Positions 13,719 to 27,138 of a DNA stretch of 48,964 bases are shown here, piece after piece; the stretch's first letter is position 1, and each line of letters opens with the position of its first letter. Under the pieces are notes generated by a model, which saw only the letters and a program-made list of their open reading frames with translations, was not told the origin of the DNA and made no database searches. Source of the DNA: Deltaproteobacteria bacterium (GTDB lineage Bacteria > Desulfobacterota > DSM-4660 > Desulfatiglandales > HGW-15); contig JAFGGA010000182.1 of NCBI GenBank assembly GCA_016930835.1, positions 1 to 48,964 of the forward strand, in the 5' to 3' direction. The translations under genes and the position numbers were made by a program.

Positions 13719-14572
13719 TACCCCTTTTCTTTCAGTTGATTGGATAATGGGTCCTCCTTTAAAATGACCAAAAGCTCTTCTAGCTTTGAAAAATCAACCA
13801 TGGGTCTTATTTTGACATCTTTGAATAACTCTCCAGGTTGATTTTCAACCCCTATTACTTCACCAACCGGAATCCCCTTTGGAAACATCCGTCCCATACC
13901 GGAACTAACCACCATATCCCCGATAATGACATCACTGGTCTTCAAAACATAATCCAGCTTGCATTCCTTTGAGGATATCCCTTTCACGATTCCTTTATCT
14001 CGAGAGCGCTGGATAATGCAATCGACTGCGCTATTTTGATCAATAATGAGAAGCACTTTTGAATAATCGGAGGATACCGAAACCAGTCTGCCCACAACCC
14101 CTTCTGCGTTGACAACCGGCATATTGATGGCAAGCCCTGAATTTTTGCCCTTATCAATGATAACGGACTGAAACCACCCCGAAGGATCTTTCCCGATAAC
14201 CTGTGCGGCGATGACCGGGTAATCAATCGTTTCTTTGAATTGTAAGAGTGCCTGAAGTCGTTGATGGGTCGCCAATGCTTCTCTCAATTGCGCATTTTCC
14301 ATCTTAAGCACATCTATTTCATGCTGTAACCCACTGTTATCATTGTGCACATTGATCAGATGAAAATATTTCGACCACACTTCCTGCGTGGTATTGACTG
14401 TTCTTTGAATAAACTTCTGAAAGGGTGCAATGGTTTCGATAACCATTCGTTCCAACGGATTCCATGATTTTCGATTTCCCGAATTCAATGTAATGGAAAA
14501 AAAAACCACAACAAGGATGAAAATCCAAATCCAACCGGCTTTTATCATTTTTTGACGGGGCAATGACGACAC
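13718..14572 (-). CDS. mreC: Rod shape-determining protein MreC
   Basis: MreC is a bitopic membrane protein whose periplasmic beta domain activates PBP2/RodA. The 284-residue product has one N-terminal membrane helix ('AGWIWIFILVVVFFSITL', about 12-29), a coiled coil (about 68-100, 'HEIDVLKMENAQLREAL') and two beta-barrel subdomains with 'IDKGKNSGLAINMPVVNAEGVVGRL', 'VLLIIDQNSAVDCII' and 'GDMVVSSGMGRMFPKGIPVG', which is the strongest family mark. The start codon is GTG with a GGAAGTAG motif before it. It lies 23 bp after mreB. Confidence 0.97.
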   Translation of the reverse strand: MSSLPRQKMIKAGWIWIFILVVVFFSITLNSGNRKSWNPLERMVIETIAPFQKFIQRTVNTTQEVWSKYFHLINVHNDNSGLQHEIDVLKMENAQLREALATHQRLQALLQFKETIDYPVIAAQVIGKDPSGWFQSVIIDKGKNSGLAINMPVVNAEGVVGRLVSVSSDYSKVLLIIDQNSAVDCIIQRSRDKGIVKGISSKECKLDYVLKTSDVIIGDMVVSSGMGRMFPKGIPVGEVIGVENQPGELFKDVKIRPMVDFSKLEELLVILKEDPLSNQLKEKG

Positions 14573-14595
14573 CTACTTCCATTTAAGGATAGACA

Positions 14596-15660
<1,065 letters not shown>

Positions 15661-15712
15661 TCAATTTATTACAGCAAGAAACCATACAAGTCTGACCTTT
15701 TATTTTATTGGC

Positions 15713-15741
15713 TTGACAAATATGGCTTGTTTCGTTTTAAT
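15713..15741 (+). promoter_or_regulatory. Sigma-70 type promoter for rpmH
   Basis: A perfect -35 box TTGACA (15713-15718) is followed after 17 bases by TTTAAT (15736-15741), five of six matches to the -10 consensus. The start point would fall near 15748, giving a leader of about 40 bases before rpmH. The ribosome-binding site AAGGTGGA lies at 15774-15781. A strong promoter fits the high demand for this ribosomal protein. Confidence 0.75.
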
Positions 15742-15788
15742 AACAAATTCACATTTTAACAATAACCCACAAAAGGTGGAATGATTAA

Positions 15789-15923
15789 ATGAAAAGAACA
15801 TATCAACCCAGTAATTTAAAAAGGGCCCGCACACATGGTTTTAGGACCAGAATGAGTTCCGCGGGTGGAAAAAAAGTTTTAAAACGCAGAAGGGCCAAGG
15901 GACGAAAACGGTTATCAGTATAA
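15789..15923 (+). CDS. rpmH: Ribosomal protein bL34
   Basis: The 44-residue product reads [20 protein letters not shown] at its start and continues with the usual '[24 protein letters not shown]', a textbook L34 of the large ribosomal subunit. It has an AGGTGGA ribosome-binding site. It opens the plus-strand set rpmH-rnpA-yidD-yidC-jag-mnmE, which is conserved in many bacteria. The chromosome origin gene dnaA, which often precedes it, is not here. Confidence 0.98.
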
Positions 15924-15930
15924 CGTGTGA

Positions 15931-16278
15931 ATGACATCTTTCTCATTTCCAAAATCAAAAAGGTTATTGAATCGTAGGGATTTTGTCAATCTAAATCGGT
16001 CAGGAGAAAGATACCGCACCAGACATTTTACGATCATTGTCAAACAAAACGGGCTCGAAATAACGAGACTGGGGATAACCGTAATCAAAAAGACAGGAAA
16101 CGCCGTCAGAAGAAATAAGGTCAAAAGGCTTGTCAGGGAGTATTTCCGTTTGCATCAAAACCAGTTTCCATCGGGATACGATATGGTTTTTATAGCAAAG
16201 ACAGGTGCCGCCGACCTTAAATATGAAAATCTGGAAGAGGAACTTGGTGAGATTATCGTGGATAAAAAGTTCCGTTAG
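15931..16278 (+). CDS. rnpA: Ribonuclease P protein component
   Basis: RnpA is the protein partner of the RNase P ribozyme that trims the 5' ends of tRNAs. The 115-residue product has the N-terminal '[20 protein letters not shown]', the central strand '[28 protein letters not shown]', where the RNR motif (RRNKVKR) contacts RNA, and '[12 protein letters not shown]'. Length is normal. It starts seven bases after the rpmH stop and its 3' end overlaps yidD. Confidence 0.97.
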
Positions 16279-16492
16279 ATGTTTTAGATATATACCTTTG
16301 GGCTTGATCCATATATATCAAAAAACAATCTCTCCGTTTTTTTACCCATCCTGCCGCTTTTATCCCTCATGTTCCGAATATGCCCGTCTTGCGATCCAAA
16401 AGCACGGTATATTAACGGGTGGACTAAAGGCAGTCATCCGGATCTTAAAATGCCATCCATTTCATCCCGGAGGTTATGACCCCGTTGATTGA
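16244..16492 (+). CDS. yidD: Membrane protein insertion efficiency factor YidD
   Basis: YidD is a small membrane-associated protein thought to help YidC insert proteins. The product contains the family core '[34 protein letters not shown]' with three conserved cysteines, and '[16 protein letters not shown]' at the end. The start is uncertain because the gene overlaps rnpA. I chose TTG at 16244, with GTG at 16247 as an alternative, since GAAGAGGAA precedes it and the product (82 residues) then has a usual length. The frame itself is open back to 16205. Confidence 0.9.
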
Positions 16493-16549
16493 TATCGATA
16501 CAGTCTGCCTCCAACCGGGCATCCTGTGATGTCCCATTGAGATATATAT

Positions 16550-18217
16550 ATGGAAAAAAGAACCTTACTCGCATTTGTACTTTCATTGATCGTTTTGGTA
16601 GGATGGGCCTTATTGGCACAAAAACAGGCCCCCCTGGATACAATCAAAGAAGAGTCACACCAGACGGAAAACACATCCTTACCCCAGCCTGAAACAGGCC
16701 CTTATCAGGAACCATTATCCCCGGATATTAGAGAGAATGGAATTTCCAAACCGGAACCTGCACCCATTCTGGAAAAGGAAATCAAGGTTGAAACACCTCT
16801 TTATATTGCGATATTTTCCAATAGAGGCCCAACCATCAAAAGCTTCAAGTTAAAAGAATACTTCGTCAACCAGGAACCAAACTCACCGTTGATTGAACTG
16901 GCCAATCTCCAGGATAATAGACAGGATTTCATTACTATTCATTTTGATACCCAATCCAATCTAAAGGATACGGATAGCATTTATGACGTGGATGAAGACG
17001 CCATTCTCTTAAATCCCTCTTCCCCAGCCAAAAATCTGACCTTTGCCCGCACTCGATCCGATGGGATATCCATCCGAAAAACCTTTCGTTTCCAACCGGA
17101 TTCCTACCCTATCGAAACCCAAATAACGCTTTCCAATGAATCTCAATATCAAATAAGCGGCAATATTCGAACGTCCATCAAAAACCTGCCCCCTCAAGAC
17201 AAAGACAGTTACTATGCCTTTAATGGCGCAGCTTTATTTTTGGATGATGATCTTGAAGAAATCAAACCCAAAAAGATGGAAGAAGAGAAACGATTGACGG
17301 GGAAAATTGACTGGGTAGCCTATGAAAATGGCTATTTTATATCCGCGGTCCTGCCCAAAGAAAAAAATCAGGGGAGTTTTATAGGCCGCCTCTTGCCCTC
17401 GGGAACGGTCGAGGCATCTTATGTTGAACCCCCAATCAATCTGAGGCCCCTTGAAAATGCTTCATCCCATTTTATGCTCTATATCGGACCTAAGGATGTG
17501 AGTATATTAAAGCAGGCCGGAGGAAAACTCGACCGGGCGATTAATTTCGGATATGTGGATATTATTGCCAGACCATTACATTTCACTCTCTTGTGGTTCA
17601 ATAAATATGTACATAATTATGGTTTATCCATCATAATACTTACCATTCTTATAAAGATCTTGTTCTGGCCTCTGACACACAAAAGTTTTAAATCCATGAA
17701 AGAGATGCAAAAAATTCAACCTTTGATGGCGAAGATAAGAGAAAAGCATAAGAATAATCGCGAACAGATGCAGCGGGAACTAATGGGGCTTTACAAAACC
17801 TATAAAATCAATCCCATGGGCGGATGCCTGCCCATCCTCATTCAACTTCCGGTATTTTTTGCCTTATTTCGGATCTTGGGAAATTCCATCGAACTCAGAC
17901 ATGCCCCGTTTATGCTTTGGATAACGGACCTATCAGCTCCGGATAGGTTGTTCCATTTCGACATTTCCTACATCCCCTTTATGGCAAAACCATACGGGAT
18001 TCCTGTGCTTACTCTGCTTATGGGGGCTTCAATGTTTCTTCAGCAAAAAATGACCCCTACACCGGGAGATCCGGCCCAGGCTAAAGTCATGATGTTGTTG
18101 CCCATTATCTTTACAGTGATGTTTATCAACTTTCCATCCGGCCTTGTTCTATATTGGCTCATCAATAACATCCTTTCCATCGGTCAACAATATCGAATCA
18201 AAAAAAGGTCGGCATAA
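16550..18217 (+). CDS. yidC: Membrane protein insertase YidC
   Basis: YidC inserts membrane proteins, alone or with the Sec translocon. The 555-residue product is the long, Gram-negative form: an N-terminal membrane helix (about 5-23, 'LLAFVLSLIVLVGWALLAQ'), a large periplasmic domain (about 60-340), then the conserved core of five helices. The core has the cytoplasmic hairpin 'SFKSMKEMQKIQPLMAKIREKHKNNREQMQRELMGLYKTYKINPMGGCLPILIQLPVFFALF' and 'FPSGLVLYWLINNILSIGQQY' near the end. Such a periplasmic domain implies a cell with an outer membrane. It follows yidD by 57 bp and is followed by jag. Confidence 0.98.
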   Translation: MEKRTLLAFVLSLIVLVGWALLAQKQAPLDTIKEESHQTENTSLPQPETGPYQEPLSPDIRENGISKPEPAPILEKEIKVETPLYIAIFSNRGPTIKSFKLKEYFVNQEPNSPLIELANLQDNRQDFITIHFDTQSNLKDTDSIYDVDEDAILLNPSSPAKNLTFARTRSDGISIRKTFRFQPDSYPIETQITLSNESQYQISGNIRTSIKNLPPQDKDSYYAFNGAALFLDDDLEEIKPKKMEEEKRLTGKIDWVAYENGYFISAVLPKEKNQGSFIGRLLPSGTVEASYVEPPINLRPLENASSHFMLYIGPKDVSILKQAGGKLDRAINFGYVDIIARPLHFTLLWFNKYVHNYGLSIIILTILIKILFWPLTHKSFKSMKEMQKIQPLMAKIREKHKNNREQMQRELMGLYKTYKINPMGGCLPILIQLPVFFALFRILGNSIELRHAPFMLWITDLSAPDRLFHFDISYIPFMAKPYGIPVLTLLMGASMFLQQKMTPTPGDPAQAKVMMLLPIIFTVMFINFPSGLVLYWLINNILSIGQQYRIKKRSA

Positions 18218-18233
18218 GAGATTGGAGGAAATT

Positions 18234-18875
18234 ATGGAAGTTTATGAATTTGAAGGAAAAACAGCCGAAGAGGCCATTAAAAACGCCTCTCGTCAACTCA
18301 ACCTTCCAGTCGAAGATCTAAAGGTAGATATTATTGAACCTGGATCTGCCGGAATCTTCGGGCTGGTCGGGACAAAAAAAACAAAAATTAGAATTACCGT
18401 GGATACGGACGATTCCATTGACTCATCCGAAGATATGCTCGCAGCCAAAGAAATCCTGGGAACCATCCTTGAACTCATTCCTGTTCAAGCCGTTATCAAT
18501 GAAGAACAAACCGATGGAAGGATCTCATTGAACATAGAAGGGGACGTATCCGGTATCTTGATCGGTAGAAAAGGGAAGACACTGGACGCACTCCAATATA
18601 TCGTGAATAAGATGGTCCAAAAAAGACTCGATAGGAAACCAAGGATCGTCATTGACTCCGAGAATTATCGACAAAGACGCATTGAATCCCTGACCCAACT
18701 GGCGATCAAAATGGGTAATAAGGCAAAAAAATTAAAAAAGCCGGTCTCCACCAATCCCTTGAATCCCCATGACAGGCGTGTCATCCACCTAACCCTAAAG
18801 GATATCCCGGATTTAAATACCAAGAGCAGGGGGGATGGGATCCTTAAAAAAGTGGTTATCATCCCAAAACGATAA
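18234..18875 (+). CDS. jag: RNA-binding protein Jag/KhpB
   Basis: Jag (KhpB) is an RNA-binding protein with an N-terminal Jag domain, a KH domain and an R3H domain. Here the 213-residue product has 'YEFEGKTAEEAIKNASRQLNLPVEDLKVDIIEPGSAGIFGLVGTKK' (Jag-N, residues 3-48), 'GDVSGILIGRKGKTLDALQYIVNK' (KH) and a C-terminal 'PHDRRVIHLTL...TKSRGDGILKKVVIIPKR' (R3H). The start ATG at 18234 was chosen because a TTGGAGGAA ribosome-binding site precedes it. A longer reading into yidC would add 30 residues unlike the family. It sits between yidC and mnmE, its usual place. Confidence 0.96.
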   Translation: MEVYEFEGKTAEEAIKNASRQLNLPVEDLKVDIIEPGSAGIFGLVGTKKTKIRITVDTDDSIDSSEDMLAAKEILGTILELIPVQAVINEEQTDGRISLNIEGDVSGILIGRKGKTLDALQYIVNKMVQKRLDRKPRIVIDSENYRQRRIESLTQLAIKMGNKAKKLKKPVSTNPLNPHDRRVIHLTLKDIPDLNTKSRGDGILKKVVIIPKR

Positions 18876-18901
18876 ATCGACCTTCAGGTTACACATTTTG
18901 C

Positions 18902-20296
18902 ATGCCCAATAGTCTTGATATCAAAGATACCATTACAGCCGTAGCCACTCCGTTCGGGATTGCGGGAATCGGCATCATTCGCATAAGCGGCGATGATGCC
19001 GTCAAGATTGCCCAAAAAATTTTCAAACCTCAAAAACCGGTTCAGCAATTTGAAAGTCATCATCTCTACTTGGGGGAAATACGTGATCCCGTCTCGGGTC
19101 AGATGTTCGACCAGGTTCTTCTCTCCTACATGAAAGCCCCGCACTCCTATACAAAGGAAGATGTGGTGGAAATAAACGCCCACAGCGGGCACCTTCTTCT
19201 CCAAAAAACGGTCCAGATTATCCTCCATGAAGGAGCCCGGCTGGCCAAGCCAGGGGAATTTACTTATCGGGCCTTTATCAACGGCCGAATCGATCTGACC
19301 CAGGCCGAAGCCGTTGTGGATCTGGTCCGTTCAAAGTCCGAGAAAGGATTAACGATAGCATCCAGACAAATCACGGGAGCGTTAAGAGAGCGAATTGAAC
19401 AATTAAGGAAAAAAGTAATCGACATCCTAGCTCATGTTGAAGCGGCCATTGATTTTCCGGAAGAAGAATCCGGGATCCTATCCAAAGAAGGAACCACCTC
19501 TTTGCTGGAAAGGGAAATCATCAAACCCATCGCCCATATCATTGCCTCATATACCGGAAGAAGATTATGGATGGACGGAATTCACACGGTCATTGCAGGT
19601 CGTGTGAACGTAGGAAAATCAAGTCTTCTCAATCGACTCCTAAATGAACAACGGGCCATCGTCACTCCAATCCCGGGTACCACTCGAGATGTGATCGAAT
19701 CCTTTGTAGACCTGGAGGGAATACCGCTCCGGTTGATGGATACGGCCGGCATCAGAAATGTCAAGGGGCAAGTTGAAAAGATGGGTGTCCAGTTAAGCGA
19801 GCAAAAGCTCTCTGAAGCGGACCTCGCCTTGATCGTGTTCGACCAGAGCAGGCCATTAAACCAGGATGATTTTCGAATCCTATCAAAAACAAACAAGGAA
19901 AAAAGTCTGATCATTATTAACAAAATAGATCTCCCCGAAAAACTCGATAAAGAACGCCTAAACGAGATGATAAGAGATTTGCCCCGGGCGAGGATATCCG
20001 CACTTACAGGGGAAGGCATTGAAAACCTTTTTCAAATCATACGCGATGTGATTTTAATAGGAGATGAGGCCATTCTCTCGTCACCTATTGCCCCCAACTT
20101 AAGACAACATGGCGCTCTTATGGAGGCAACTCGATTTTTTCAGAACGCTGCCAATAGCATGAGAGAAGATGCACCTTTGGAAATCATTGCCGTTGATCTG
20201 CACGGTGGACTGGAGGCCCTGGGGACCATTACAGGTGACACAGGAGATGAAGAGATTTATGATAAGATATTCAGCGAGTTCTGCCTGGGAAAATGA
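18902..20296 (+). CDS. mnmE: tRNA modification GTPase MnmE
   Basis: MnmE with MnmG adds the carboxymethylaminomethyl group (or an equivalent) to the wobble uridine of some tRNAs. The 464-residue product has the N-terminal folate-binding domain ('DTITAVATPFGIAGIGIIRISG', 'GEFTYRAFINGRIDLTQAEAVVDL'). It then has a G domain with Walker A GRVNVGKS (233-240), IPGTTRD (257-263), DTAG (280-283) and NKIDL, and a C-terminal helical domain ending in FCLGK, the conserved C(I/L)GK motif with its cysteine. Length is normal. mnmG is not in the window. Confidence 0.98.
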   Translation: MPNSLDIKDTITAVATPFGIAGIGIIRISGDDAVKIAQKIFKPQKPVQQFESHHLYLGEIRDPVSGQMFDQVLLSYMKAPHSYTKEDVVEINAHSGHLLLQKTVQIILHEGARLAKPGEFTYRAFINGRIDLTQAEAVVDLVRSKSEKGLTIASRQITGALRERIEQLRKKVIDILAHVEAAIDFPEEESGILSKEGTTSLLEREIIKPIAHIIASYTGRRLWMDGIHTVIAGRVNVGKSSLLNRLLNEQRAIVTPIPGTTRDVIESFVDLEGIPLRLMDTAGIRNVKGQVEKMGVQLSEQKLSEADLALIVFDQSRPLNQDDFRILSKTNKEKSLIIINKIDLPEKLDKERLNEMIRDLPRARISALTGEGIENLFQIIRDVILIGDEAILSSPIAPNLRQHGALMEATRFFQNAANSMREDAPLEIIAVDLHGGLEALGTITGDTGDEEIYDKIFSEFCLGK

Positions 20297-20389
20297 ATTT
20301 TAACCTTGCTTAATAAACCAAGAGGATGATATAGACACATATCCCGCCTTGAATAAGAATCAAAAAAACAGATCCATGTAGGGGGTGCA

Positions 20390-20971
20390 ATGGGATATTT
20401 GCTTGGGCTTAAAGAGTACCTGGGAGTTAACTATGAAACGACCATTTTTGATCAAGCAGCAGAGTCCGGTCACCCATGGGAATTTCACCTCCACGGATAC
20501 CAAAGGGTTCAGGCCAGTGTGCTAGAGAATCTCACCTATGATGTAAAACTGGATATCAAGGGAGAGGAGAAGAAGGAGATTCCAAAAATTCATATCAAGT
20601 TTTTATATCCTCTTGACACAGCAGAAGCCGCCCGTCCTCTTCTTAAAATAGACAACCGCATCAAAGACCTTGCGCTCGAACCCATCGTATCTCCGAAAGA
20701 CAGATATTTCATCAAGAACAAATCCCTTTTCCCTCTCATGAAAGAAAAACAGGTCGTTTTTTTCTATTCCCTTGAAGGAGATGTTATACGGGGTATCATT
20801 ATGGATTTTAGTCGATACGATATCACGGTCGCCTTAAAAGGGGGCACTCTCATTACCATCTTACGGCATTCCATATATGATCTTCGGGATAAGAAGGGGC
20901 GGTGTTTCCTAAAATCCAACCAAGAAAAAACAAGGGATTGGAGGAAAAGCGATCTCTATGTTAAGGACTGA
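20390..20971 (+). CDS. Protein with two tandem Sm-like (Hfq-like) domains
   Basis: The 193-residue product has no family that I recognise at full length. Residues 120-168 read like an Hfq/Sm fold: 'VVFFYSLEGDVIRGIIMDF', then 'YDITVALKGG', then 'LITILRHSIYDL'. The last piece resembles the Hfq Sm2 motif YKHAIST. Residues 30-75 repeat the same plan: 'WEFHLHGYQRVQASVLENL', 'YDVKLDIKGE', 'IPKIHIKFLYPL'. The two halves align around YD(V/I)x(L/V)x(I/L)KG. Between them lies a charged linker. This suggests an RNA-binding, Hfq-related protein, but that is inference from pattern alone. It begins 93 bp after mnmE with a good AGGGGGTG ribosome-binding site, so it may share that transcript. No signal peptide or membrane helix is seen. 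Confidence 0.6.
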   Translation: MGYLLGLKEYLGVNYETTIFDQAAESGHPWEFHLHGYQRVQASVLENLTYDVKLDIKGEEKKEIPKIHIKFLYPLDTAEAARPLLKIDNRIKDLALEPIVSPKDRYFIKNKSLFPLMKEKQVVFFYSLEGDVIRGIIMDFSRYDITVALKGGTLITILRHSIYDLRDKKGRCFLKSNQEKTRDWRKSDLYVKD

Positions 20972-21028
20972 CTATCCCTGTCTCCCACGAACCATCCTCC
21001 CAGTGTTGAAAGGTCTCCGATAACAAAT

Positions 21029-21187
21029 TCAAAATTTTGTAACACTTTAGCTATTTTCAAAAAAATGAAACAACTGGATTCCGTGATCAAGCCTGCCCCG
21101 CACTTGATGAGGGGCAGGCTTGATCGCGGAATCCAAACCTTGCATCTCATAATTTTCAAAAGGCTAAACGGTTACAAATCTTTTAAG
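21029..21187. mobile_element. MITE-like element, copy 2
   Basis: About 159 bp bounded by imperfect inverted repeats. The left end TCAAAATTTTGTAAC (21029-21043) plus 'TTTAGCTATTTTCAAAA' mirrors the right end, which reads AAAAGATTTGTAAC then 'TTTAGCCTTTTGAAAA' on the other strand. The inner part is one 24-bp inverted repeat (21076-21099 and 21111-21134) with a single mismatch and an 11-base loop. It contains GATTCCG(T/C)GATCAAG, as in the element at 3091-3432. No protein is encoded. It separates the Sm-like gene from a 98-aa orphan frame. Confidence 0.7.
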
Positions 21188-21198
21188 TTTTTTAAAAG

Positions 21199-21495
21199 AT
21201 GGCCGAAGAAGACTATGCCAATTCAAACGACCCTATTATCGTAGGAACCCATTCCACGGCCGGCGGGGTCGACGCAGTCCTGGATGAATCTTTTACCATT
21301 GGTGAAGGTTCTTACGAGATCACCTTATACGTGGATGTGGAAGGTACCATGAACTACAGCGAAGACGGTACCCCTCCTGAGGGAGTAACATTTACGGAAA
21401 GCGTACTTGATCTTGGTCCAGGCTATGGGGAAGACCTCTATGGTGATCAAGGCCTTCACCCGTTCGTTCCGAGATTCAGTGTCGTTGTGGAATAA
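21199..21495 (+). CDS. Hypothetical 98-aa acidic protein
   Basis: I do not recognise this product. It is acidic, rich in glycine, aspartate and tyrosine, and predicted to be mostly beta ('ESFTIGEGSYEITLYVDVEG', 'RFSVVVE'), with no cysteine and no signal peptide in the frame. It starts 12 bp beyond the right end of a MITE-like repeat, with no clear ribosome-binding site. Its stop lies only three bases from the thiC stop on the other strand. It could be a real small protein, or the 3' remnant of a longer secreted beta-rich gene whose 5' part was lost when the repeat arrived. The uninterrupted frame and low-bias composition favour a coding origin. Confidence 0.45.
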   Translation: MAEEDYANSNDPIIVGTHSTAGGVDAVLDESFTIGEGSYEITLYVDVEGTMNYSEDGTPPEGVTFTESVLDLGPGYGEDLYGDQGLHPFVPRFSVVVE

Positions 21496-21498
21496 GCG

Positions 21499-22782
21499 CT
21501 AGGCCTTGAAATATTCTTTTACCTGCTTGATGGCGCAGAACTTGCCACACATGGTACAAACATCATCCTCGCCGGGTGGATTTTCAGCGCGTAATTGTTT
21601 GGCTTTTTGTGGATCAATAACCAAACGCATCTGGGTCTCCCAATCCAGATTTTTCCGGGCCATCGACATTCTTCGATCCCTTTCCCATGCCTGTTTATTC
21701 CCTCGGGCAAGATCCGCAGCATGTGCCGCGATCCGCGTAACGATTACACCTTCCCGGACATCTTCTACATTAGGCAGGCAAAGATGTTCCGCGGGCGTTA
21801 CATAGCATAAGAAATCCGCACCTGCTTCCCCGGCCACGGCCCCTCCGATGGCACATGCCACGTGATCATACCCGGCAGCAATATCCGTCACCAAAGGACC
21901 GAGAACATAAAAAGGAGCATGATGACAAAGTTGTTTCTGTAAAATAATATTAGCCTTGATCTGATTTAAAGGCACGTGGCCGGGACCCTCAATCATCACC
22001 TGGACATCTTTTTCCCAGGCCCACTTGGTGAGTTGGCCCAAGGTCATCAATTCATGGATCTGTGCCCTATCCGTGGCGTCAGCCAAACATCCAGGCCGTA
22101 GTCCATCACCCAGGCTGAGGGTAACATCATATTCCTTGGCTATGGAGAGGAGCCTGTCATAATGCTCAAACAGAGGATTTTCTTTGTCATGGTGCAGCAT
22201 CCATGTAGTTAAAAAGGCCCCCCCACGGCTGACAATATCCGTCACCCGGCCCTGGTTTTTCAGCATCTCCAATGCGGCTCGGGTAAGTCCGCAATGAACT
22301 GTAATAAAGTCCACACCATCCGCCGCCTGGGTTTCGATCACCTCGAAGATCTTATCCACTGTCAGGTGGATCAAGCCTCCTTTTTCATTCACGGCCTCAA
22401 CCACGGCCTGGTATATGGGAACGGTTCCCACCGGTATGGTCGATTCATTTAAAATTTTCCGTCTATATTGTCCGATGTCCCCACCCGTGGAAAGATCCAT
22501 CACCGTATCCGCTCCCGCCTCAATGGAGACCTTCAGCTTTTTCAATTCTTCACCCAAAACAGCCCTATCGGAAGAGGTCCCGATATTGGCATTGACCTTG
22601 ATCCGCAATCCCTCCCCGATACCACAAAAATCAAGCCCTTTATGTTTAAAATTTGCCGGGATCACCACCCTGCCCTCTGCAACCTGATTCCGAAGCCACT
22701 GAAGATCCACTTGTTCTTTTTTGGCCACCATCTCCATCTCAGAGGTGATCATTCCCTTTCTTGCCTTTGCTAATTGTGTCAT
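21499..22782 (-). CDS. thiC: Phosphomethylpyrimidine synthase ThiC
   Basis: ThiC is a radical SAM enzyme that rearranges 5-aminoimidazole ribotide into the HMP-phosphate pyrimidine of thiamine. The 427-residue product is the short form common in clostridia and Desulfobacterota. It carries 'KVNANIGTSSD', 'GADTVMDLSTGGDI', 'VDFITVHCGLT', 'LSLGDGLRPGC', 'MIEGPGHVPLNQIKANI', 'YVLGPLVTDIAAGYDHVACAIGG', 'CYVTPAEHLCLP' and the unusual C-terminal cluster motif CTMCGKFC. It lies 19 bp downstream of thiD on the minus strand. No TPP riboswitch was found ahead of the pair. Confidence 0.98.
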   Translation of the reverse strand: MTQLAKARKGMITSEMEMVAKKEQVDLQWLRNQVAEGRVVIPANFKHKGLDFCGIGEGLRIKVNANIGTSSDRAVLGEELKKLKVSIEAGADTVMDLSTGGDIGQYRRKILNESTIPVGTVPIYQAVVEAVNEKGGLIHLTVDKIFEVIETQAADGVDFITVHCGLTRAALEMLKNQGRVTDIVSRGGAFLTTWMLHHDKENPLFEHYDRLLSIAKEYDVTLSLGDGLRPGCLADATDRAQIHELMTLGQLTKWAWEKDVQVMIEGPGHVPLNQIKANIILQKQLCHHAPFYVLGPLVTDIAAGYDHVACAIGGAVAGEAGADFLCYVTPAEHLCLPNVEDVREGVIVTRIAAHAADLARGNKQAWERDRRMSMARKNLDWETQMRLVIDPQKAKQLRAENPPGEDDVCTMCGKFCAIKQVKEYFKA

Positions 22783-22801
22783 TTTATTCAGAACTCCTTA
22801 T

Positions 22802-23572
22802 TTACGATAAAAGCGAGACTACCCCCGCCCCTTGCCCACATGGATACCCTTTTTCTATGGCTTGTCGAGTAAACACATGAGCTCTTTGGATCGCTTCAAC
22901 GATATGATAACCCATCGCCAAAAAAACGGCCAGTGAAGTGGAAAACACACAGCCGCTCCCATGTGTATGCTCCGTTTCAATCCTCGGGTTCGAAAACAAA
23001 TGTACCTCCTCTCCATCATAGAGCAGATCCGTACATTTGCCTTTTAGATGGCCGCCGGTGATCACCGCATGGGGACCCCATTGTTTCATTTCTCTGGCAG
23101 CCATTTCCATCTCGTCCAAAGTCCTGACCTTTTTTCCGGTCAGGATCTCGGCCTCATCCAGGTTGGGTGTTATCACCTCGGCCAAAGGGAAAAGGTTGTG
23201 TTTAAGGAGAGAACAGGCATCCGACTTCAACAGTATTCGCCCTGTTGATGCCCTGATCACCGGATCGATAACCACATGGGATAGGCTATATTGTTTTAGG
23301 ATTTTACCCACTTCTTTGACAGCGGCCTTGGTCAAGAGCATACCAACCTTAACAGCGTTGGGTAATCCATCATCTAGAACGGCTTGAATCTGTTTTGAGA
23401 TAAAAACAGCAGGCACCTTATGTATATCGGTCACACCGATGGAATTTTGTGCGGTCACTGCCGTGATGGCAGTCAATGCATGGGCCTTAAAATGGGTGAT
23501 GGTTTTGATGTCCGCATGAATGCCGGCTCCGCCGCATGAGTCCGAACCTGCTATTGTTAATACATATATCAT
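22802..23572 (-). CDS. thiD: Hydroxymethylpyrimidine/phosphomethylpyrimidine kinase
   Basis: ThiD phosphorylates HMP and then HMP-P to HMP-PP, the step after ThiC in thiamine synthesis. The 256-residue product has the ribokinase-like family marks: 'LTIAGSDSCGGAGIHADIKTI' at the start, 'VKVGMLLTKAAVKEV', 'VVIDPVIRASTGRILL', 'VITPNLDEAEILTG' and 'TEHTHGSGCVFSTSLAVFLA', which holds the anion-hole glycines and the catalytic residue region (GSGC). I chose the ATG at 23572, which has GGACAAGA before it. A longer reading to 23590 only adds six residues. It heads the thiD-thiC unit, divergent from a cyclase gene. Confidence 0.96.
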   Translation of the reverse strand: MIYVLTIAGSDSCGGAGIHADIKTITHFKAHALTAITAVTAQNSIGVTDIHKVPAVFISKQIQAVLDDGLPNAVKVGMLLTKAAVKEVGKILKQYSLSHVVIDPVIRASTGRILLKSDACSLLKHNLFPLAEVITPNLDEAEILTGKKVRTLDEMEMAAREMKQWGPHAVITGGHLKGKCTDLLYDGEEVHLFSNPRIETEHTHGSGCVFSTSLAVFLAMGYHIVEAIQRAHVFTRQAIEKGYPCGQGAGVVSLLS

Positions 23573-23773
23573 TCTTGTCCAAAAAATCAATTTTAGTCAA
23601 TAAAAAGCTAACAACAAGCCTGCCGGGTGTCAATCAAAATCCCCACGGAAAGCAGTGCAACTTGACTTTATCCCTATATTAACCTATAAATAAACCCGGA
23701 TTCACCTTCGACCGCCGTTCCTTTTCATCACAAACCGAAAGGCCTCGTCGATGAGATTACCCATGGAGCCTTA

Positions 23774-26053
23774 ATGATAAAAAAACATCTAAGACCTTTC
23801 CTTTCCGTCAATCCCATATCCATCACCATAGGTCTCACCATCCTCGTTCTGATCATTTTTGCCATGGGCATCTCCTTGTTTGAATCGATCGAACTGAAGA
23901 CTTATGATCTACGGCTTCTATCAAGGGGTACTGAAAAGCCCTCTCCTCAAATCGTATTGGCGGCCATTGATGAAAAAAGCCTTGATGTGGAGGGACGGTG
24001 GCCTTGGCCGCGATCAAAGATAGCCGCAGTTATTGACCTCCTTTCAGAAGACGGGGCAAAAGTGATCGGTTTTGATATGGGGTTTATCGAGCCGGATGAA
24101 AACAGCAGATTGCAGTTGTTGAATGAACTTGAGAAAAAAATCAGGGCGTTAAAAATCGAGGACGCCAACTTAATGACTTTTCTGGAAAAGAGCAAACTCG
24201 ATGCCGATAATGATCTGGCCTTGGCCAATGCCATAAAAAGATCAAAAGCCGAAATCGTTTTGGGCTATTGGTTTTATATGGAAAAGACCTTTATTAATTT
24301 TGAAATTGATGACGAAAAGCTGAAAAAACAGGCTCAGCTTATCAGCAATTCCAGATATCCCATTACCTATGAAAATGCGGATCTTTATGTGGATCCATTC
24401 CAGACCGCCTATGCGCCCGAACCCAATATCGAGATCCTGAGCATAGCCGCCAAGTCCTCGGGTTATCTGAATCATGTCCCCGATCTGGAAGGTGACAGCC
24501 GGGACGGGATCATCCGATCCTTCACCCTTATCGTAAAATGCGGTCAAGAGATATATTCTCCCCTATCCATCCAGGCCGTCTGGAATTACCTCGACCAACC
24601 CCAATTAATGGTGAGGGCCGCGAGTTACGGCATAGACATCCTCATGGGAGATCGATTGATTCCTCTGGACGAAAACGGCAGGATACTTTTAAATTTCCTG
24701 GGGCCGGAAAAAACATTCCCTTATTACTCCGTGAGCGATATATTGCACAACCAATTCAACGAAGGGACTTTTAAGGATAAAATCGTTATTGTAGGTGCCA
24801 CCGCGCTCGGTCTCGGGGATACTGTCAATACCCCCTTTTCAACCACGGCAGAATATCCAGGTCCTGAAATCCATGCAACCATCATCGATAACATCCTCAA
24901 AAAAGATTTCCTGCATAAACCCCAATGGACCAAAATCTACGACGTCCTGGCTATTTTATTGCTCGGTCTTTTCTCCGGTTTTGTCATACAACGATTGGAC
25001 GCCATTAAAGGCATAATCTTTACATTATCTCTCTTTATTATCCACATCCTCGCAGGCACATGGCTTTTTACTCAATTCGATCTCTGGGTCAATATCGTCT
25101 ACCCATTATTGGCCCTCATCCTTATTTACACCTGCTTAACCCTCTATCGTTATTTCACGGAAGAAGTTGAACGGAAAAAAATCAGAAGTGCTTTTAGCTA
25201 TTATGTCTCTAGCTCCGTGGCTAATGAGATGTTGAAAAGTCCTGAAAAACTCAAACTGGGAGGTGACAAAAAAGATCTTTCCGTTCTTTTTTCAGATATC
25301 CGTGGATTCACCACCATATCGGAGGGTCTGACCCCGGAAGAACTGGTTCATCTACTTAACGAATACCTCACCGTCATGACGGATATCGTCTTTAAATATG
25401 ACGGCACCCTCGATAAATATATGGGCGACGCCATTATGGCCATCTATGGGGCTCCGGTCGACAAACCTGATCATCCATCCAGGGCGTGTAATTCGGCCCT
25501 CGATATGATGGAAAACCTAAAGAAGCTGAACGAAAAATGGATCCGGGAAGGGAAGAAACCCCTGGATATTGGGATCGGGATTAATACGGGGATGATGATG
25601 GTGGGGAATATGGGATCTGCTCAGCGCTTTGACTATACGGTCATGGGAGATGCGGTCAACCTGGGTTCCCGACTGGAAGGAACCAATAAGGTATACAATA
25701 CCCATATCCTAATCAGTGAATCGACCCATGAAAGGGTAAAAAACGAATTTGTCTGCATGGAACTGGATAGTGTGCGTGTTAAGGGTAAAAATTTGCCTGT
25801 GAATATTTTTGAGCTGATCGGCAGGCCTCAAAACGTTACCGCAGAGCAGAGAGAGGCTATCAAGTTCTTTCTAAAGGGCCTTCAACTTTATAAAAAACAA
25901 AAATGGAATGAGGCCATATCGGCATTTGAGATCGTTACGGCCATGGACCGCAATAATTATGCAGCAAAACTCTATATTGCCCGGTCTAACAATCTCAAAT
26001 TAACCCCCCCTGGTCCGGATTGGGATGGGGTGTTTACGATGAAAACCAAATAA
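23774..26053 (+). CDS. CHASE2-domain class III nucleotide cyclase
   Basis: This 759-residue membrane protein should sense an extracytoplasmic signal and make a cyclic nucleotide. It has an N-terminal membrane helix (about 15-37) and a CHASE2 sensor domain (about 40-390, starting 'LKTYDLRLLSRGTEKPSPQIVLAAIDEKSL'). Three more membrane helices follow ('VLAILLLGLFSGFVI', 'IIFTLSLFIIHILAGTWLF', 'IVYPLLALILIYTCLTLY'). The cyclase domain holds the two metal aspartates in LFSDIRGFT and YMGDAIMA, a KYMGD lysine, and 'YTVMGDAVNLGSRLEG'. The lysine and threonine favour ATP as substrate, so adenylate cyclase is likelier than guanylate. The C-terminal 90 residues look like a short TPR-type helix pair. It is transcribed away from thiD. 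Confidence 0.93.
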   Translation: MIKKHLRPFLSVNPISITIGLTILVLIIFAMGISLFESIELKTYDLRLLSRGTEKPSPQIVLAAIDEKSLDVEGRWPWPRSKIAAVIDLLSEDGAKVIGFDMGFIEPDENSRLQLLNELEKKIRALKIEDANLMTFLEKSKLDADNDLALANAIKRSKAEIVLGYWFYMEKTFINFEIDDEKLKKQAQLISNSRYPITYENADLYVDPFQTAYAPEPNIEILSIAAKSSGYLNHVPDLEGDSRDGIIRSFTLIVKCGQEIYSPLSIQAVWNYLDQPQLMVRAASYGIDILMGDRLIPLDENGRILLNFLGPEKTFPYYSVSDILHNQFNEGTFKDKIVIVGATALGLGDTVNTPFSTTAEYPGPEIHATIIDNILKKDFLHKPQWTKIYDVLAILLLGLFSGFVIQRLDAIKGIIFTLSLFIIHILAGTWLFTQFDLWVNIVYPLLALILIYTCLTLYRYFTEEVERKKIRSAFSYYVSSSVANEMLKSPEKLKLGGDKKDLSVLFSDIRGFTTISEGLTPEELVHLLNEYLTVMTDIVFKYDGTLDKYMGDAIMAIYGAPVDKPDHPSRACNSALDMMENLKKLNEKWIREGKKPLDIGIGINTGMMMVGNMGSAQRFDYTVMGDAVNLGSRLEGTNKVYNTHILISESTHERVKNEFVCMELDSVRVKGKNLPVNIFELIGRPQNVTAEQREAIKFFLKGLQLYKKQKWNEAISAFEIVTAMDRNNYAAKLYIARSNNLKLTPPGPDWDGVFTMKTK

Positions 26054-26107
26054 CGACCATCCGGAAATCTTGTGCTTCCGAATGAAGCCACCAGCATTCA
26101 GCGGTCG

Positions 26108-26124
26108 GCATTCAGTATGAATGC
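26108..26124. terminator. Possible bidirectional hairpin between convergent genes
   Basis: GCATTCA-GTA-TGAATGC is a perfect seven-base-pair stem with a three-base loop between the stops of the cyclase gene and the YdcF-family gene. There is no clean T run on either side, so a terminator role is only a guess. Confidence 0.3.
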
Positions 26125-26128
26125 ATAA

Positions 26129-26866
26129 TCATAAAAGGAAATGAAACCAATAATAAATGAGCTTCTGATACTCCAAAACCACCGTCCTCAAATACACCCG
26201 GTTTTTCCACCAGTCTGCGGGATGAAATTCCGAATATCTGGAATAGCGTATTCTGATTTGAACGTTCATCTCATCAAAAACCTTTTTATATGTAAGCCAA
26301 GTACGCCTCGTGTGGTAGGCTGATGTAACCACGATAATAGATCGAAACCCTTCCGTTTCTACGATCTCTCGTACGAGTTCCGCCTCCGCCAAGGTACTGC
26401 TCACAGGCGTTTCATCGGACAGAATCGCTGATGAAGGAACACCCAGATCTTCCAAAAGATACCTCAATAAATCGACATACAGCGGATAACCCACGCCCTT
26501 TTCTTGAATCAGTGCATAGCCGTCCAAGGGTTGCTCTTTTGCAATAAATATCTTAGGCGCCATTCCCATCTGATAGATGTCTGCGGTTTCAAGGCCCCTT
26601 TCAATATTACTACCTGCTAGACAGACTATAAGATCGGCCGGTTGTAGCGGATGGTCAAACATAAGATACCTGCCGAAGGCGGTAAGAATGGCGGCGTGAT
26701 AATGGGTCAAAAGGACATATACGACAAGCAGAAAAAAAACAAGCCATCTTATCCAGGTCAATTTGGTTAATTTGACACCTCCCGGTTCTATAGGCTCTGA
26801 TTCAGGTATGTCTTGATCGCCTTTAAGAAGCCTTCCCTCATCTTTTTCTTTATCCAACATAAGCAC
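26129..26866 (-). CDS. YdcF/SanA-family (DUF218) membrane protein
   Basis: The 245-residue product has one N-terminal membrane helix ('WIRWLVFFLLVVYVLLTHY', about 39-57) and a DUF218 domain facing outward (about 75-235). Family marks are 'DLIVCLAGSNIERGLETADIYQMG', 'ILSDETPVSSTLAEAELVREIV' and 'SIIVVTSAYHTRRTWLTYKKVF'. Relatives include E. coli SanA and YdcF and are linked to envelope integrity, but the reaction is not known. The N-terminal 35 residues are charged and cytosolic. The frame offers two starts two codons apart. It converges with the cyclase gene. Confidence 0.88.
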   Translation of the reverse strand: MLMLDKEKDEGRLLKGDQDIPESEPIEPGGVKLTKLTWIRWLVFFLLVVYVLLTHYHAAILTAFGRYLMFDHPLQPADLIVCLAGSNIERGLETADIYQMGMAPKIFIAKEQPLDGYALIQEKGVGYPLYVDLLRYLLEDLGVPSSAILSDETPVSSTLAEAELVREIVETEGFRSIIVVTSAYHTRRTWLTYKKVFDEMNVQIRIRYSRYSEFHPADWWKNRVYLRTVVLEYQKLIYYWFHFLL

Positions 26867-26991
26867 CGCCTTTTATAAAATCTTTGATACGATCAAAAAA
26901 CAGGAGAATTGTGATATAGACATTTCCTTCAAAATATTATATTTGAAAAAGACGATTACGACAATCAAAGGCTGTAAAAAAGGTAAGATTC

Positions 26992-27138
26992 ATGAAAATA
27001 AATTGCCAAGAGCATCGAATAACCATGGAGCTTCTTGCATTAAAGATAAGACTGGAAAAGGGTATCCCGGACCCGATTGAACGAAAAGAGATTGCAGACA
27101 GGATAAAAACCCTTGAGGAAGCCCTCGACCTGGTCTAG
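26992..27138 (+). CDS. Hypothetical 48-aa helical protein
   Basis: An ATG with AAAAAGGTAAG ahead of it opens a 48-residue frame beginning MKINCQEHRITMELLALKIR and ending 'KTLEEALDLV'. The product is charged and should be helical. The core 'EKGIPDPIERKEIADRIKTLE' looks like a short folded unit. It has no membrane segment. It lies head-on to dtd, with the two stops three bases apart, and divergent from the YdcF-family gene. I do not know its function. The ribosome-binding site and coding look support a real gene. Confidence 0.65.
   Translation: MKINCQEHRITMELLALKIRLEKGIPDPIERKEIADRIKTLEEALDLV

Follow-up and report, generated by a model that had tools for sequence, protein, structure and literature searches.

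Hfq is the best-known bacterial RNA chaperone, and many bacteria are listed as being without it. How small RNAs (sRNAs) meet their targets in such organisms is the question to which the locus described here speaks, a gene in a deltaproteobacterial contig of 48,964 nucleotides (GenBank JAFGGA010000182.1; the whole stretch is hereafter called the window). Directly after mnmE, the sequence-only reading of the window had recognised what it took to be two tandem Sm-like (Hfq-like) domains in a single protein. Does the protein indeed have this architecture, and could it act in the place of Hfq?

The gene and its relatives

In the open reading frame list of the window, the gene spans positions 20390–20971 of the forward strand (193 codons). 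It is separated from the mnmE stop codon by 93 bases, and a purine-rich AGGGGGTG precedes its ATG. The following features, all on the plus strand, were assigned from an AlphaFold2 (AF2) model, structure searches with VIA-align and Foldseek, profile comparisons and conservation:

20390–20971 (+): gene for the tandem Sm/Hfq-like protein, 193 aa (intact full-length relatives; AF2)
20432–20620 (+): predicted N-terminal Sm-like unit, residues 15–77, with helix 19–26 and strands 29–34, 38–47, 51–56, 62–65 and 69–74 in the AF2 model (AF2; Hfq best match when folded alone; profiles)
20585–20587 (+): codon of K66, invariant in 64/64 members; in the alignment it pairs with Hfq K56 and with the C-terminal unit's R159
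20621–20707 (+): linker, residues 78–106, containing the end of helix 75–84, helix 89–92 and the invariant R105 (AF2, conservation)
20708–20896 (+): predicted C-terminal Sm/Hfq-like unit, residues 107–169, with helix 110–118 and strands 122–127, 131–140, 144–148, 154–158 and 162–167 in the AF2 model (VIA-align, Hfq profile, PDB profile match)
20864–20869 (+): codons of R159-H160, invariant in 64/64 members and aligned with K56-H57 of the Hfq YKHAIS motif
20897–20968 (+): folded C-terminal tail, residues 170–193 (GRCFLKS..RDW.KSDLYV) (AF2, conservation)

This is a real, old gene, because 31 of the 85 genomes from its class carry full-length relatives with open frames, 48–63% identical (a 32nd match, in G034, covers only a short piece interrupted by stops and is not counted), and because a scan of the collection found 51 loci encoding a relative. 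These loci are spread over several phyla and include Delta proteobacterium NaphS2, Desulfoluna, Desulfohalobiaceae, Anaerolineae/Caldilineaceae and Calditrichota. The family tree shows deep branching mostly without resolution, and no argument made here rests on it.

An Rfam scan of window positions 14000–27000 gave no match, and promoter and terminator scans near the gene yielded results at chance level only. On the 3′ side of the gene, positions 21075–21135 form a REP-like palindrome whose 28-nt arms are 93% complementary and enclose a 5-nt loop; about 35 similar copies are dispersed through the same genome.

Predicted fold and relation to Hfq

The motifs that had drawn attention to the protein are present, in the order originally described, in the C unit (LEGDVIRGIIMDF, YDITVALKGG and ILRHSIYDL) and in the N unit (LHGYQRVQASVLENL, YDVKLDIKGE and IHIKFLYPL). 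Based on 30 aligned relatives, AF2 modelled the full-length protein with a mean pLDDT of 94 and a pTM of 0.90, predicting two units of one helix and five strands each (residues 19–74 and 110–167). When the halves of the 193-residue model are superposed, as the sequence-only reading had suggested, both match Hfq crystal structures: the C half fits S. aureus Hfq (1kq2) at 0.8 Å over 59 residues (VIA-align, Z 6.4), and the N half, whose rows in the VIA-align search with the full model are all Hfq, fits mostly at 1.4–2 Å with Z 5.3–5.6 (3qsu, for instance, at 1.4 Å over 59 residues, Z 5.6). Foldseek, queried with the whole two-domain model, returned mixed KOW, Tudor and Hfq rows with E-values of 4e-3 and up. 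Since a single domain can fill the match list of a whole model, the N half was therefore also folded and searched alone. Residues 1–90 then reached a pLDDT of 90; the best 50 Foldseek rows were all Hfq or Hfq-like, as were 49 of the best 50 VIA-align entries, with Z up to 9.2 (Synechocystis Hfq) and a designed small barrel (Z 9.1) as the single exception. Both units have the Sm fold in these models. The proposal of two tandem Sm/Hfq-like domains is thus borne out jointly by AF2, the matches to Hfq structures and the profiles: each half is predicted to form a five-stranded Sm barrel, and no clear match to an unrelated family emerged.

The two helices (175–181 and 183–186) and the strand (190–192) that AF2 places in the C-terminal tail belong to a part of the protein that the main branch of the family conserves and the divergent branch lacks. 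In members of the latter (loci L156–L167), the tandem Sm unit is preceded by a basic N-terminal segment and a pair of short repeats of helical appearance (..MPFQMAMAVAQGRMELNEALERLA.. and ..LSRSLATQVAMGHADLEAYLAKQR..), an extension for which no Pfam match was obtained at the trusted level.

How far does the relation to Hfq extend to the sequence? In profile–profile comparisons against 15 canonical Hfqs from the phylum of the window genome, the C half matched with a probability of 93% (E 3.5e-7), the N half with 18% (E 0.0014) and the two halves each other with 76% (E 2.4e-5); fifteen column-shuffled control profiles all stayed at or below 0.5%. With 12 distant members added (64 members in all), these values rose to 94% for C–Hfq, 61% for N–Hfq and 88% for N–C. 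A 38-row family profile searched against the PDB had Hfq or Hfq-like proteins as its best four matches (E 9e-4 to 1.5e-3), led by B. subtilis Hfq (9e-4), archaeal MJ1435 (0.001) and S. aureus Hfq (0.0015). Using the single window sequence, the C half scored 54 against one Hfq, a value reached by none of 2000 shuffles (mean 22.7, sd 4.4). The N half is at chance against Hfq in such a comparison (p 0.40) and barely above it against the C half (p 0.03), which is why the family profile and the structure are needed for this part of the protein. Judged by these comparisons, the C half is related to Hfq by sequence, too, and the N half is a copy that has diverged further and whose similarity to Hfq is modest. 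A phmmer search of the PDB with the single window protein gave only capsid proteins at E 1–2, which were taken as chance.

Curated models capture this relation at their margins. The window protein does not reach the curated cut-offs for canonical Hfq (PF17209, TIGR02383); among 38 members, Pfam Hfq (PF17209) matches 26 at E ≤ 1 and TIGR02383 matches 23 at E ≤ 0.1, nearly all of them below cut-off, and only the distant member G583 passes the Pfam threshold (29.2 bits versus 27). A few distant members match PF21979 (E 6.2e-6) and NF047718 (E 5.3e-7); the main branch fits PF17209 or TIGR02383 better than either of these.

Six residues are invariant in all 64 members: K66, R105, G130, G135, R159 and H160. 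G130 and G135 align with the two core glycines of Hfq, G29 and G34, and Y143 aligns with Hfq F42 (Y, F or W in 64/64 members); of the Sm2 [YF]KH pore motif, the C unit has R159-H160 in all members and the N unit the lysine K66 only. In Hfq, the counterparts of K66, Y143, R159 and H160 line the proximal pore, which holds uridines, and contact RNA. Going by this alignment, the C unit is the more Hfq-like of the two and keeps the proximal-pore signature (Y143, R159-H160), and the N unit is strongly diverged, with one pore lysine left. In the main branch, the rim position that follows helix 1 of the C unit reads K-E-R/K. At the position of Hfq Y25 on the distal face, 63 of the 64 members have T or S, and this change makes A-rich binding as in E. 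coli Hfq doubtful. The alignment as a whole suggests that the pore face has been kept and the distal face changed.

SH3-like small barrels are common, and the protein might be a pair of SH3/OB-like barrels of the S1, KOW or Tudor type that resembles Hfq by convergence of fold only. Such a view could draw on the weak Pfam S1 matches of 12–14 members, on the NusA S1 domain and KOW/Tudor pairs among the weak matches and on the chance-level score of the single-sequence N half; yet sequence profiles rank Hfq first, the C half stands out both in the profile comparison (93%) and on a single pair (0/2000 shuffles), the N half alone retrieves Hfq or Hfq-like proteins throughout the best 50 Foldseek rows, and the N and C halves, besides being mutually related, are in register at the pore positions. 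Convergence is therefore largely refuted already, and we rate it very improbable; the S1-domain reading in particular was dropped, as the S1 matches are fewer and weaker than those to Hfq. A still more sceptical interpretation, that of a spurious or decaying frame with chance Hfq-like motifs, kept by its position after mnmE, could point to the failure of the window protein to match any Pfam or NCBIfam family and to a genomic place that relatives do not share. Dozens of genomes with full-length open frames, the many invariant residues and the confident AF2 model all speak against it; the conservation data refute this interpretation and leave it hardly any probability at all.

Genomic neighbourhood and the occurrence of ordinary Hfq

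Upstream of the gene, window positions 15931–20296 hold rnpA-yidD-yidC-jag-mnmE in their usual order (named from their translations, jag and mnmE also from Pfam). The sequence-only reading had taken such RNA- and translation-linked neighbours as a cue, and had asked whether orthologues keep their place next to mnmE. Orthologues do exist, in the 31 class genomes and 51 loci described above, but the place is kept in none of the 51, and mnmE, jag, yidC and thiC are all absent within up to 6 kb of these loci. Since it is not conserved, this cue must be regarded as a coincidence that nonetheless accompanied a correct conclusion about the domains.

Instead, 22 of 27 class-level loci have a receiver-domain gene directly upstream on the same strand, mostly at gaps of less than 100 bases. 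The encoded protein, of about 166 aa, contains Pfam Response_reg and no other Pfam domain. Downstream, facing the tandem Sm gene, seven loci have topA (with dprA behind it in six of them) and ten have a gene for an SH3/AMIN-domain protein. No linkage to a response regulator was seen in the relatives from Desulfoluna, Chloroflexota and Calditrichota. The genome of the window offers a possible explanation for its own deviating arrangement: on another contig, C191 (L140, from about 6625 onwards), topA comes directly after the closest relative of the linked regulator (77% identical), and no Sm gene intervenes. Because regulator and topA still adjoin there, the tandem Sm gene has probably moved, leaving the regulator–topA site and landing behind mnmE in this lineage, which makes the C191 junction its apparent former site. 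The same genome encodes about six more receiver paralogues at 40–54% identity, one with an internal stop (C142, C208, C76, C175, C164 and C1; L141–L146), and these make up an expanded set of free-standing receivers that share a conserved C-terminal extension.

Do genomes with the tandem gene also encode an ordinary Hfq? None of the 85 class genomes has a Pfam Hfq match over the cut-off, and several of the weak matches are the tandem Sm gene itself. In a sample of 394 genomes from the phylum, 92 have an ordinary Hfq and none of the 14 holders of the tandem gene does, the two weak matches in these holders again being the tandem gene. A search of 24 further holder genomes with the Hfq HMM likewise detected no ordinary Hfq over cut-off, and 12 of 13 weak matches proved to be the tandem gene when coordinates were checked. 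In a second phylum, the family is present in 42 of 189 genomes, and the sole Hfq match over cut-off in these 189 is the family member G583. This mutual exclusion is suggestive but no proof. The absence of ordinary Hfq is only weakly tied to the presence of the tandem family (Fisher p 0.047, uncorrected for relatedness), and most of the class genomes without ordinary Hfq, 54 of 85, are also without the tandem Sm gene. As no ordinary Hfq was found in the holders, the tandem protein presents itself as a candidate for the RNA-handling protein that these bacteria seemed to lack.

Proposed function and comparison with known systems

We consider it likely that the protein is a divergent tandem Hfq-type RNA-binding protein, i.e. 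a two-domain member of the Hfq/Sm superfamily that stands in for ordinary Hfq. Three chains would assemble into a ring of six Sm units, whose pore face, built from the unlike N and C units, would bind RNA; U-rich 3′ ends or sRNA/mRNA are the likeliest targets. In genomes without ordinary Hfq the protein would do the post-transcriptional work of the latter. That a receiver-domain gene so often lies close by suggests that in most relatives a two-component signal may bear on the synthesis or activity of the protein; in the window genome any such tie would not run through linkage. Going one step further, the family might constitute the working Hfq of several groups regarded as Hfq-less—an asymmetric three-chain ring of alternating unlike units, linked to two-component signalling—which we offer as a tentative idea only. 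Sm/Lsm rings became asymmetric in eukaryotes, and two unlike Sm units in one chain would show a homomeric RNA ring turning asymmetric. For some bacteria listed as lacking Hfq, among them Delta proteobacterium NaphS2 and Desulfoluna (genomes of loci L052, L074, L075 and L079), the family supplies named, testable candidates. In myxobacteria, where no Hfq homologue has been detected, an alternative RNA chaperone has been proposed for the sRNA Pxr (PMC5568312); if the second phylum is Myxococcota, they could be among the groups served by the tandem family.

What computation shows is the predicted fold, the relation to Hfq, the conservation of the pore positions, the fused architecture across phyla and the linkage to a response regulator in relatives; a literature search found no experiment on any member of the family. 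The main rival to the RNA-binding interpretation is that of an Sm/Hfq-derived adaptor which has kept the fold, lost the role of RNA chaperone and now serves, without binding RNA, as the protein- or DNA-binding partner of the linked response regulator, giving a two-component system its output module or scaffold. The close linkage in 22 of 27 class-level loci, a receiver protein without any other Pfam domain, the changed distal-face positions and the folded, conserved tail, unlike the disordered tail of Hfq, would all suit such a partner. What makes us think it unlikely is that, besides R105 and the two glycines, the only invariant residues are K66, R159 and H160 at Hfq pore positions, and that the linkage is lost in the window genome and unseen in the Desulfoluna, Chloroflexota and Calditrichota relatives. 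A warning against assigning RNA binding to the tandem protein may nevertheless be read from BB0268 of Borrelia, which had been classed as an atypical Hfq before it was shown not to bind RNA (PMC11607428), even though the tandem protein, in contrast to BB0268, has a predicted Hfq fold and a sequence relation to Hfq.

With canonical Hfq (PF17209, TIGR02383), the RNA-binding candidate described here shares the Sm fold, the N-terminal helix with its IQDQ/IKNK start, the L-x-x-G...G core, F-x-x-[FY] and, in its C unit, an RH version of the KH pore motif, and each of its halves superposes within 0.8–2 Å. Canonical Hfq, however, is one Sm domain of about 70–100 residues, whereas the tandem protein packs two units into 193, has R-H in place of K-H and T in place of Y25, and differs further in its strongly diverged N unit and folded, conserved tail; except for one distant member, the family also stays below the Pfam and NCBIfam Hfq cut-offs. 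The neighbourhood of canonical hfq is miaA/hflX (PMC11607428); for the tandem gene, the conserved neighbours detected are a receiver-domain gene and topA-dprA. The cyanobacterial or ‘mobile’ Hfq (PF21979 Hfq_1, NF047718), the latter described as a ‘mobile Hfq clade’ (PMC11607428), is a divergent Hfq branch like the tandem family, but has a single domain, and no copies of the tandem family were found in phages, plasmids or viral contigs. Archaeal MJ1435 (2qtx, 4x9c, 5dy9), which provides the second and third PDB profile matches (E 0.001) and superposes on the N half at 1.4–1.6 Å, is likewise a single domain as opposed to two.

The closest precedent in architecture is ZMO0347 of Zymomonas mobilis, which together with proteins of six other Sphingomonadales species represents an Hfq with two Sm-like domains; it was found by BLASTP, shares 60% identity with E. 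coli Hfq, and led its authors to ask whether three proteins form a six-unit ring (PMC2877685). Two Sm-like domains per chain, predicted ones in the tandem protein, are common to both, but the description of ZMO0347 sets the tandem family apart as far more diverged, found in other groups and made of unlike halves; Hfq models come near to recognising the C unit alone. Literature searches turned up no paper describing a tandem Hfq from the groups that carry this family. An Hfq with two Sm domains is thus already known from Zymomonas; what is new is a diverged family of this architecture in other groups.
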